Origin: Flaviaesturariibacter aridisoli
Lineage (GTDB): Bacteria; Bacteroidota; Bacteroidia; Chitinophagales; Chitinophagaceae
DNA: 64,000 nt
Direction of reading: 5' to 3'
Assembly: GCF_004343705.1 (NCBI RefSeq)
Contig: NZ_SKFH01000001.1
Span: 124,001 to 188,000, forward strand
The position numbers and the translations under genes were made by a program. The notes below the pieces were generated by a model that ran no database searches, was not told where the DNA came from, and saw nothing but the letters and a program-made list of their open reading frames with translations. Within the stretch, counting starts at the first letter, position 1. Each line of letters begins with the position of its first letter. Shown piece after piece: positions 21,081 to 46,847 of the stretch.

Positions 21081-21242
21081 TCGTTATTAATCAGTAGCGG
21101 TTATCGGGCGCGCGCGCTGCGGCCAGGTCAAAGGGGCAGGTAAGCGGCTTCGAGACGGGTGTAAGCGGCGCCGGTCATCCCACTCCGCTTCACCCTATGC
21201 CCCGGCGGCACCAATGCTCCCCGGGCCCGCCGCGCGTAGCCA

Positions 21243-30662: not shown

Positions 30663-30741
30663 GGGGAATGATGGCGATTCGTCTGTACAACGTCTGTGCG
30701 ATCCACCAGTCTGGTATGAAGCAGTAGAAGATCGATGGAAT

Positions 30742-31423
30742 TGCATTGGCAGCGAAACGCTCCGTAGGAGCGGAATGTCTGTGGCTCCCGCCAAGGCGGG
30801 ACAGGCTCCGGGTGAAACCCGGGGTTGTGTACGCAAGTGCGAAAAGGCGCGCCCTGTAGGGCCGCCACCTTATCCCGCGGGCTTAAGCCCCGGGAGGCCC
30901 ATTCTTCGCGGTGGCACCCCTACAGGGTGCGCTATCGACCTACCCGCATTTAACCCCGGGTTGCACCCTATCGTGTGGACACAATTCTTGGCCATGCCTT
31001 CTTCTTGATGGCTGTTCCAATCCAATAAGGAAGTGAAAATCAATACTCCGAAGGAGCACTGTGTCACTGGCCCCGGGCGCAAGCCCGGGGACTACGGGGC
31101 GTCCTATTGGCTTCTGCGCCCCGCAGGGGCGCCGTATTGCCGCGCTGCTGCCTTGCAACAGATTGTTGAATCGGGGCAGGAGCAACACGGCACCGCTTCG
31201 CGGTGCAGATGCGCCATCGCTCCGACTTCCCCGGGCTTGCGCCCGGGGCCAGTGACACGGCACCGCTTCGCGGTGCATTGTTCGTACATTCAATCGGATG
31301 CCAGCCGCGAATCATCGAAAGATCGAATGGTGTCCACACGATAGGGTTGCACCCGGAGCCTGTCCCGCAGCGGCGGGAGCTACCAACAGGCCGTCCCTAC
31401 GGGACGGTTCGCTACCAGCGCAT
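30742..31423. repeat. mosaic of nested palindromes with inverted outer units
   Basis: Most of the 1,015-nt gap 30663-31677 is a string of perfect short hairpins: 30758-30772 (CGCTCC/GGAGCG), 30786-30801, 30808-30822, 30914-30930, 31046-31056, 31071-31090 (CCCCGGGC, loop GCAA, GCCCGGGG), 31116-31132, 31190-31206, 31229-31248 and one in 31391-31407. An outer unit at 30742-30820 is repeated in inverse at 31347-31423; the inner 25-bp pair 30958-30982 / 31330-31354 (ending in CTATCGTGTGGACAC) and the 30-bp pair 31060-31090 / 31229-31258 are also inverse. No protein-coding sign was seen. The last 250 nt before 31678 are pyrimidine-rich. Confidence 0.88.
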
Positions 31424-31677
31424 TGTCAACGAACTATTTTTAGACAGCCTCCGAGGGTGCTAGAGTATTGCATGAATGGCCAGTTGCCTTTTCGCCTTTT
31501 TTTACTTCCGGCTTGACTCTCTGATGCGTTCAATGGATGGTTGTTTGCCCCGGGCGTACAAATGCCTGTTTTTCCTGGGTCTCCCCAAAATCTCCGTATT
31601 TCTACTATTCTTTTTCTCATTTTCTTTTTCTTCCTTTATCAGGTCATCAATTTTCCAAACCGTAAAACTTTCAGCTT

Positions 31678-32433
31678 ATGCCCCGTTCCATTTCCGAAAC
31701 CGGTCACGGCGTGAACCGCGCCAACTTTGACGGTCTTTACGAATTGACCGGCCTGATCGGTACCAGCTACAAACCCAGTAACGAAAACCTGAAGCGCGAC
31801 GCCCTCAAGGCGAAGGCCACCGAATGCGGGATCGCCTTCGAAGAGGGTGAAGCGGCGCGGCGCGCTTTCGACAACGCCGTTGCCGCGCGTGCCGAGCCCT
31901 ACAGCGGGATCAGTGCGCTGTGCACCCGCATTCTAAAAAGTTTCCGTACCTCGGGCGCGCCGGCCAAGGCCATTGCGTCGGCCGATGCCCTCAAGAAGAA
32001 GGTACAGGGCACGCGCGTCACGCCGCCACCAACAGCGGTGGACGGCGAGGAGGCTGCGAAAGCCCGGTCAGTGTCGCAAACGAGCTACGACATGGTGCAT
32101 GTTCATTTTGAAAAGCTGGTGGCCGGCCTGGCAGAGACGGCGGAATACAACCCCGCCGAGGAAGAACTCACGGTAGCGAGCCTGAAGGCGCGGGCGCGCG
32201 CCATGAAAACCGGGAATACAACCGTGGTAACCACCGAAGCGGCCCTCACCGCCGCCCTGATCCGCCGCGACCTGGCCTTCTACGCACCCGAAACCGGTCT
32301 CGTCGATACCGCCAAGTACGTCAAGGATTACCTGGGCTCCCTCGATCCCGCCAAGGTGCCCGCCGCGGTGGAAGCCAAAAAGTTCAAATTCCGCAATGTG
32401 CGCAAGCTGCTGGCAAAGGCCGGCCTTGCGTAA
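31678..32433 (+). CDS. hypothetical protein with internal duplication
   Basis: 251 aa, no signal peptide, no membrane helix, predicted mostly helical. It starts MPRSISETGHGVNRANF, a start I associate with an uncharacterised family recurrent in Bacteroidota. Two halves look related: YKPSNENLKRDALKAKATEC (about 33-52) with AFDNAVAARAEPY, and YNPAEEELTVASLKARARAM (about 157-176) with LTAALIRRDLAFY, suggesting duplication of a helical unit of roughly 110-120 residues. It stands alone between the palindrome mosaic and a strong terminator followed by a 21-nt array. No function can be given. Confidence 0.8.
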   Translation: MPRSISETGHGVNRANFDGLYELTGLIGTSYKPSNENLKRDALKAKATECGIAFEEGEAARRAFDNAVAARAEPYSGISALCTRILKSFRTSGAPAKAIASADALKKKVQGTRVTPPPTAVDGEEAAKARSVSQTSYDMVHVHFEKLVAGLAETAEYNPAEEELTVASLKARARAMKTGNTTVVTTEAALTAALIRRDLAFYAPETGLVDTAKYVKDYLGSLDPAKVPAAVEAKKFKFRNVRKLLAKAGLA

Positions 32434-32456
32434 CGGCATACCGGTGCTTATACCGC

Positions 32457-32486
32457 AACAGCCCCGTCTTTGACGGGGCTGTTTTG
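32457..32486 (+). terminator. intrinsic terminator after the duplicated hypothetical gene
   Basis: Perfect 12-bp arms (AACAGCCCCGTC and GACGGGGCTGTT), loop TTT, then TTG. It starts 24 nt after the stop and ends 4 nt before the 21-nt array. Confidence 0.85.
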
Positions 32487-32490
32487 TGGC

Positions 32491-32742
32491 CGGGCGCGCA
32501 GCTTCCGCACCCGGGCGCATGCTTTCACAACCCGTGCGCACAGAATCCGGGACCGTGCGTACGGGTTCAGAGAGGATGCGCACGCCTCCACAACTGGAGC
32601 GCACGTCTTCAGAAGTGGAGCGCATGCTTTCAGGGATCAAGCGCACGCATTCAGGATGCATGCGCACACTTTGAGAAATGGAGCGCAGGCATTCAGAAGG
32701 CAGGCGCAGGCTTTGTGCATCCGGGCGCACGATCTTTCAGAT
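32491..32742. repeat. minisatellite: 12 units of exactly 21 nt
   Basis: Twelve consecutive 21-nt units without one indel, diverged in sequence, with the shared core GCGCA followed by a TTCAG-like word (for example GGAGCGCATGCTTTCAGGGA). Several frames stay open through it on both strands because 21 is a multiple of three, producing 7-residue periodic peptides, but no start, signal or family supports translation. A thirteenth unit decays at 32743-32763. The remaining 70 nt up to 32832 show nothing. Confidence 0.92.
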
Positions 32743-32832
32743 TGGTGCAACGCAAGGTGGGCTGACGCACGATCAGGGCACGCGGACCCCCAGGCCTCGG
32801 CATCCGTTTGCCCACATCCGCCTGCATCGTTC

Positions 32833-46506: not shown

Positions 46507-46550
46507 CTTTTCCGGCCCGCCGGGACGGCCGCGCAGTGGCGGATGTTGGG

Positions 46551-46802
46551 GTGGGCGTAAACAAAGCGTGGTTGCCGCCGCCGGTTGAACGGGTGGGAGT
46601 AAATTAATTGTGTGTCCTCCTGGCTGACGGGCGGGTGGGCGTATCCGCCTGGTGGTTACTCCCGCCGGATGAACAGGTGGGAGTATCCTTGAGGTGGGTA
46701 CGCCTTCCTGATGAGTAGCGCGGAGTAAAGACGCTGTGGGTACTCCGGGCTGGCAAACGGGTAGGAGTAAACACGATGTGTATACTCCTGCCGGATGAAC
46801 CG
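46551..46802. repeat. minisatellite: 6 units of exactly 42 nt
   Basis: Six units without indels, each built as GTGGGAGTAA... followed by a TACTCC-like word and GCCGGATGAACGG, so that GGAGTA and TACTCC can form a small hairpin in most units. 42 is twice the period of the array at 32491. It starts 44 nt after a terminator, as that array also does. Confidence 0.9.
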
Positions 46803-46847
46803 GGCCGGCGTATGGGGCGTAATGGCCCGATACTTTTACATACCATC

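Follow-up and report, generated by a model that had tools for sequence, protein, structure and literature searches.

A recurrent pairing in Bacteroidota between genes for small helical proteins and tandem arrays with a 21-base step points to an undescribed protein-on-DNA system. The case considered here lies in a 64,000-nucleotide stretch of the Flaviaesturariibacter aridisoli genome (hereafter, the window), in which an open frame on the forward strand (31678-32433) encodes a 251-residue protein that begins MPRSISETGH, belongs to what we call family 1, and is the proposed partner of the array behind it. Family-1 genes are almost always paired with an array that mostly lies behind the gene and steps by 21 bp or, at a few loci, by 22 bp. 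Our main reading, to which we assign a probability of about 0.5, is that gene and array form a single module in which the array would serve as a DNA platform to which the neighboring protein binds at sites spaced by two helical turns.

The rule that emerges is that protein families without an assigned function adjoin DNA arrays that are alike in period and not in sequence. The function of DUF6261 (PF19775) and of two unnamed families thereby becomes open to direct testing, a bacterial nucleoprotein system founded on helical phase comes into view as a possibility, and a class of Bacteroidota minisatellites otherwise taken for junk acquires a rationale.

The array of the window

The initial annotation of this DNA had described an indel-free array of twelve 21-nucleotide (nt) units with a conserved core GCGCA and a TTCAG-like word, starting a few nucleotides past a terminator, and each of these features holds up. 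The terminator-like hairpin, which has 12 pairs and a T run (hairpin scan and sequence), occupies 32456-32484 on the forward strand, between gene and array. The array itself, which we assign to neither strand, runs from 32491 to 32742, where the core and then the TTCAG-like word recur in twelve contiguous 21-nt units whose phase is kept exactly. Autocorrelation, a check that the annotation had called for, gives a clear period of 21: the identity at lag 21 is 0.61, versus 0.26 +/- 0.03 at the same lag in 1000 dinucleotide shuffles, and no shuffle exceeds 0.40 across lags 3 to 99. A period scan returns a z of 22.1 at period 21. Columns 4 to 6 are conserved in 12/12 units and columns 7 and 8 in 11/12 (together, the core), and the TT of columns 13 and 14 is conserved in 10/12 and 11/12. 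This unevenness is greater than in simulations of tandem duplication at a homogeneous rate, with P values of 0.003 to 0.01 when the mutation rate is set to reproduce the mean conservation.

Because unit sequences differ between loci, searching for the array by its DNA is fruitless. The window array has no other match in its own genome, a similarity search across 98 genomes (its own and 97 others) returned only the array itself, and searches with the core pattern gave mainly the window array together with scattered chance-like matches. The link to other arrays was found by following the protein and by testing for period instead of sequence.

Family-1 proteins

The window protein has no significant relative in Pfam, NCBIfam, PHROG, or the PDB. 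It matches 27 places in 13 of 98 genomes of its kin (its own included), and 349 relatives were found in genome_contigs, the best 80 of which were carried forward. The records behind these best 80 of 349 are titled Flavobacterium, Chryseobacterium, Kaistella, Aequorivita, Chitinophaga, and other Bacteroidota, and they include two metagenome bins with other labels (L059 and L094). The protein alignment consists of the window protein plus 69/77; loci with in-frame stops (L056, L078, and L126) and seven intact ones were left out.

The window protein and a central member of the family were modeled (mean pLDDT, 86.6 and 90.9), and both models consist of helices throughout, arranged as two matching sets, one after the other. 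The internal duplication that had been noted for the window protein is supported for the family as a whole: in a half-against-half comparison with hhalign (probability, 95.4%; E, 1.8e-8), the two halves are homologous. The family is also basic, with a median pI of 9.4 and a net charge of +7 over 70 members. Fold searches returned no structure at an E of <= 0.001 (the PDB for both models and a viral library for the window model) and no known DNA-binding fold for family 1. There is no match to the window protein among 72,556 plasmid records or in phage records. A scan of viral contigs found two relatives at 31% identity, on the viral-collection contigs L236 and L237.

Pairing of gene and array

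Whether homologs of the window protein are accompanied by such arrays was a question raised by the initial annotation, and the answer is that 92 of 101 nonduplicate family-1 loci carry one, 89 behind the gene and 3 in front of it; these loci are not independent, as several share a genome or are almost identical to one another, and the thresholds were set in the course of the work and not in advance, such that the count is 91/101 without L048, which was included at a z of 6.9 (the tile null given below was measured at a z of 8). A first test on the 101 loci placed 79 arrays with a 21-nt step and 2 with a 22-nt step behind the gene. When the other 20 loci were put through a comb test of higher sensitivity, eight arrays were added behind the gene and three in front (L034, L041, and L047), leaving eight loci without an array and one (L056) that is marginal. 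Loci on duplicate contigs (L029, L030, L031, and L039) and those with <140 nt of downstream sequence were dropped before counting. Among the 21-nt arrays of the family, the median start is 57 nt past the stop codon, and the number of units, with a median of 11.6, ranges from 4.3 to 35.9.

Such periodicity is rare in control stretches. In the initial period scan, a period of 21 or 42 was present behind the gene in 66/80 loci, and 5/80 stretches in front of the gene were periodic, none of them at 21 or 42. A scan with matched controls gave 66/75 behind the gene (51 at 21, 14 at 42, and 1 at 41), versus 0/48 and 1/41 in controls further downstream (the one at 21), 4/76 and 1/72 in upstream controls (periods of 45, 8, 8, 8, and 51), and 1/80 inside the gene (at 21). 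The upstream control for the 101-locus count yielded four matches at 21 and two at 24 in 102 loci. In a phylum-wide draw, 11 of 395 genomes (the window genome included) match family 1; nine further matches from this draw, five short fragments having been left out, comprise four with an array behind the gene, two with one in front, and three with none.

The step is held while the sequence drifts

Based on averages over the 21-nt arrays of at least 130 nt, identity exceeds expectation by 0.35 at lag 21, 0.34 at lag 42, and 0.33 at lag 63, with an excess of about zero at lags 20 and 22. The excess is lowest at lags of 10 to 11, and the unit is therefore not made of two similar half-sites. The constancy of the step is matched by no constancy of sequence: units differ among the arrays of one genome as well as between loci.

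Within 23 pairs of related loci, which overlap within a few clusters and thus are not 23 independent tests, the arrays differ by 15.2% over 5499 aligned sites and contain 7 gaps, of which five are exactly 21 nt, one is 4 nt, and one of 80 nt is a contig end (L078). The 90 nt behind the arrays differ by 18.4% over 1952 sites and contain 19 gaps: 17 of 1 to 18 nt, one of 21 nt, and one of 90 nt that the L078 contig end accounts for. Ahead of the gene, there are 11 gaps of 1 to 13 nt in 1575 sites, and the genes have 9 gaps, all of 3 or 6 nt, in 16719 sites. Units are gained or lost whole, and phase is held as the letters drift, a pattern not expected from a coding constraint. Selection on spacing, as first suggested for the window array, gains strong support from array gaps that are nearly all whole units next to flanking gaps of 1 to 18 nt. 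We looked both for an absence of such arrays elsewhere and for frequent indels, either of which had been named as grounds against the original proposal, and found neither in the genome or in its relatives.

Alignment of unit profiles in free orientation gives a weak consensus, CYGCAAWWAGAAWTATNGCAW, which lies on the gene strand in 74/79 arrays; the five reversed arrays and some others fit it poorly. The same columns are constrained within 60 arrays, with a variance of 0.0052 versus at most 0.0012 in 2000 random registers, in a test that is slightly circular given that the register was set by the match to the consensus. Array similarity also tracks protein identity (Mantel correlation, 0.38; 0/300 permutations; 61 arrays), a correlation that could be obtained from descent alone. 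Individual pairs depart in both directions: between L073 and L127, the array is far more conserved than the gene (6.3% versus 22.4% difference), and between L074 and L080, it is far less conserved (34.6%, versus 11.9% for the gene and 4.4% for the flank).

Could the arrays be neutral minisatellites that arose through slippage or unequal exchange and persist by chance? Steps of a higher order (42, 63, and 84 nt), which reflect local duplication of blocks of units, and the whole-unit gaps between relatives are what such a process would leave behind. Neutrality does not, however, account for the consistent adjacency to three protein families, for a single period across different sequences, for constraint on particular columns, or for arrays that diverge by substitution without short gaps. 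We reject this reading on the gap pattern and the consistent adjacency, and we regard it as very improbable.

Coding and RNA readings

The proposal that 21 nt stands for seven codons finds no support. In favor of an array that codes for a seven-residue repeat, 47 of 79 arrays have at least one fully open frame; the other 32 have none, however, and there are 22-nt arrays of 13 to 20 units. Moreover, array gaps are 21 nt and never the 3 or 6 nt seen in the genes. On the gap pattern, the 22-nt arrays, and the consistent adjacency, we reject a coding role, which we consider the most improbable of the readings discussed here.

A structured RNA, also raised at the outset, fares better in the window than in general. 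The window array folds better than its shuffles on both strands (z of -3.7 and -3.4), but as a common feature, structure is not apparent: across 77 arrays, folding has a median z of -1.5, or of -0.7 versus column-permuted arrays. Rfam returned nothing at gathering score in the window stretch and, at six array loci, nothing at gathering score except 5S rRNA and Flavo-1, which lie far from the array in L113. One could nonetheless envision the array as a separately transcribed, repetitive RNA (a guide, an antitoxin, or a sponge) that is bound by the neighboring protein, as in type III toxin-antitoxin systems. The array adjoins a gene for a small basic protein, the window array folds well, and the hairpins behind 36/81 genes (see below) could serve both directions. 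The modest folding of the set as a whole and the Rfam result at the arrays examined weigh against such an RNA, as do the lack of a known toxin family among the Pfam matches and the spacing itself, given that short gaps in the spacers of RNA units would be tolerated and none such were seen. We consider this reading unlikely.

Other families and other arrays

Two further protein families share the pairing, one strongly and one partly, with arrays mostly in front of the gene. The first, family 3, is a further helical family; its array stands in front of the gene and is present at 22/28 distinct genes (10/11 in a first search and 12/18 matches in a second, with one array-less place common to both). 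These arrays lie at some distance ahead of the gene and precede sequences that resemble Bacteroidota promoters (by eye). The second, DUF6261, has a 21- or 22-nt array within 1000 nt (z >= 7.5) at 6/19 genes, 5 of 14 in the window genome and 1 of 5 elsewhere, or at 5/19 without L169, which was counted at a z of 7.6; the remaining 13 of 19 genes have none. For comparison with background, 1000-nt tiles reach a z of >= 8 at period 21 in 6 of 400 cases, the family loci of the sample itself included.

The window genome is rich in all of this. It has 14 copies of DUF6261, a family present in 3/118 genomes of a phylum-wide sample (its own included), and 15 family-3 genes. In total, 19 of its 31 genes from the three families have an array: 2/2 in family 1, 5/14 in DUF6261, and 12/15 in family 3. 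Profile comparisons established no homology among the three families. The resemblance of DUF6261 to family 1 is weak, with 4/70 members matching at E values of up to 0.1 and an hhalign E of 0.0017 at a probability of 15%, and the window protein has no match to PF19775.

A 464-kb sample of the genome (400 kb plus the window) contains eight periodic stretches at a z of >= 12.9, six of them at period 21. One of these six stands in front of a family-3 gene, and three (L186:3946, L188:8311, and L184:3346) have no adjoining gene of the three families. The array at L188:8311 has flanking letters in common with a family-3 locus (by eye) and may have lost its gene.

Two features of family 3 are recorded in passing. 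Some of its proteins in the window genome carry an additional carboxypeptidase-regulatory-like domain at the C-terminal end (L191 by Pfam and L194 by alignment). At L192/L193 of the window genome (C27), a family-3 gene gives two overlapping partial matches, the second of which contains a stop, and is probably broken; the array there has a step of 22 nt.

Genomic context and mobility

At 80 family-1 loci, the nearest upstream gene is co-oriented in 66, opposite in 7, and absent in 7, and the nearest downstream gene is co-oriented in 36, opposite in 18, and absent in 26. Pfam matches for 20 of the 66 co-oriented upstream neighbors indicate secreted proteins with a T9SS tail (six), restriction-modification (four), and metal or efflux functions (four); of the rest, four are others and two have no match. 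In the window, the gap upstream of the gene holds a cluster of nested inverted repeats (30729-31435) with arms of 92, 53, 32, and 23 nt.

An array behind a terminator is a property of part of the loci only, the window included. In a relaxed scan, a terminator-like hairpin follows 36/81 genes, versus 0/81 shuffled sequences and 0/43 control stretches, and 22 of the 36 hairpins precede the third array unit. A strict scan gave 29/81, versus 1/81 shuffled and 0/43 controls, and missed the terminator of the window itself, hence the relaxed one.

Blocks of ~1.2 kb, composed of a short leader, gene, array, and end, recur at ~86 to 98% identity behind different upstream genes, both within one genome (L060/L061) and between records labeled as different genera (L071/L092, where L092 is a metagenome bin). 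Gene and array therefore move together. Several blocks (L060, L061, L071, L082, L083, L092, L103, and L115) end in attC-like inverted repeats, as judged by eye, and the DNA common to the blocks stops at or near the GTT core of these repeats; no such end was seen at the window locus. Membership in integron cassettes, considered for these ends, is unsupported, as the integron integrase model TIGR02249 exceeds its cut-off in 0/8 genomes, a set apart from the window genome. It scores below the cut-off in all 8 and in all 14 controls.

These observations bear on a further alternative, namely, that the array is there for a general host factor, be it a recombinase, a topoisomerase, or a nucleoid protein, or for moving the block, with the proteins as passengers or accessories of mobility. 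A single array format across three families without established homology would be explained in this way, as would the three of six sampled arrays with no such gene and blocks that move behind different upstream genes, some with attC-like ends. The sites of a single host factor, in contrast, would not be expected to differ in sequence within one genome as these units do, or to track the identity of the adjoining protein, and the mobility version is not helped by an integrase that stays under the cut-off in 8/8 genomes. We judge it unlikely as well, if anything slightly more so than the RNA reading.

A proposed platform

Of the possibilities first offered for the array, a protein-binding platform fits best because the step is an exact two turns, the partner protein is basic, and the arrays have no common RNA fold; the binding itself is what we infer. 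In this model, the basic, 2-fold repeated helical protein would bind its own array as double-stranded DNA, with one protein per unit. Because 21 bp correspond to two turns of B-DNA, all units would lie on one side of the helix, and bound proteins could contact one another. We speculate that they would do so and form a regular fiber and, as the least certain step, that the fiber might mark, insulate, silence, or help keep the locus, which may often be an accessory operon for restriction-modification, metal resistance, or secreted proteins.

Several observations count against the platform. No array is found at 8 of 101 family-1 loci (with one more marginal) or at most DUF6261 genes, and half of the six sampled arrays lack a family gene beside them. 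The window array folds well as RNA, and the divergence of the L074/L080 arrays is odd for, and speaks against, strict sequence recognition. That the array falls outside the transcript is shown for part of the loci only, as hairpins follow 36/81 genes. The models match no known DNA-binding fold, and the carboxypeptidase-regulatory-like domain of some family-3 proteins would be unexpected in a DNA-binding partner.

To generalize further, the Bacteroidota might possess self-addressed chromatin systems, in which many small basic helical proteins would each polymerize on their own adjacent array to mark, insulate, or silence a neighboring and often horizontally acquired operon, with dozens of differently addressed copies per genome. 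We offer this broader idea as speculation and think it doubtful.

Relation to known systems

One of the closest analogies to the proposed platform is the plasmid iteron replicon, in which direct repeats of about 17 to 22 bp lie beside a gene whose product contains a replication initiator domain. The likeness is in direct repeats that each span about two helical turns and adjoin the gene for a small protein that binds them or, in our case, is proposed to do so; the window array and its relatives do consist of direct repeats in this size range beside a gene. Unlike Rep, the window protein has no Rep or other Pfam domain and no plasmid match, no Rep-type family is among the Pfam matches listed for 70 members (25 of 30 weak families), and the loci are chromosomal, with many differently sequenced copies per genome. 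ParR-parC and similar partition systems likewise combine helically phased tandem sites with a neighboring gene for a small protein that binds them, and a partition NTPase is encoded next to these. They share with our loci the phased sites adjoining a small gene, but the family-1 array usually lies behind the gene, there are many loci per genome, and no partition ATPase is among the Pfam matches of the 20 upstream neighbors scanned.

In type III toxin-antitoxin systems such as ToxIN, a structured repeat RNA is transcribed upstream of the gene for a ToxN-like endoribonuclease. A repeat array, a small protein gene, and, at some loci, a terminator between them are common to both; in contrast, the family-1 protein is all-helical, the step is 21 nt, the order is reversed, and there is no common RNA fold. 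The window protein has no Pfam match to a ToxN-like endoribonuclease and none to a PDB structure at an E of <= 0.001. CRISPR arrays consist of identical repeats and unique spacers, whereas the window units are contiguous and without spacers. Integron cassettes resemble several Flavobacterium blocks in their attC-like inverted ends (by eye) but not in the integrase, which is over the cut-off in none of 8 genomes. Finally, DUF6261 resembles family 1 in comprising helical Bacteroidota proteins, some of which (6/19) have a 21- or 22-nt array, although an hhalign probability of 15% does not establish homology.

A literature search, judged by titles and abstracts and with most subscription journals and bioRxiv outside its reach, yielded no description of such a protein-array pairing. 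The parts consulted of a survey of prokaryotic satellites make no mention of it (PMC6749651), and repeat typing of Flavobacterium psychrophilum, as far as covered by the parts consulted, deals with repeats of 4 to 9 nt (PMC4501049).

Other periodic stretches

Three other repeats deserve mention. A weaker periodic stretch of the window (46540-46820; lag-84 identity, 0.64; z of 8.4 at period 21) lies between two forward-strand genes, behind a terminator-like hairpin (by eye), with no adjoining gene of the three families. A 34-nt tandem repeat with a z of 31.3 is found at the start of the stretch at L178:1 of the window genome (C1:210001). Within the window, the 7-nt unit AACTACA forms short arrays that recur in gaps, at 21242, 29917, and 59976.
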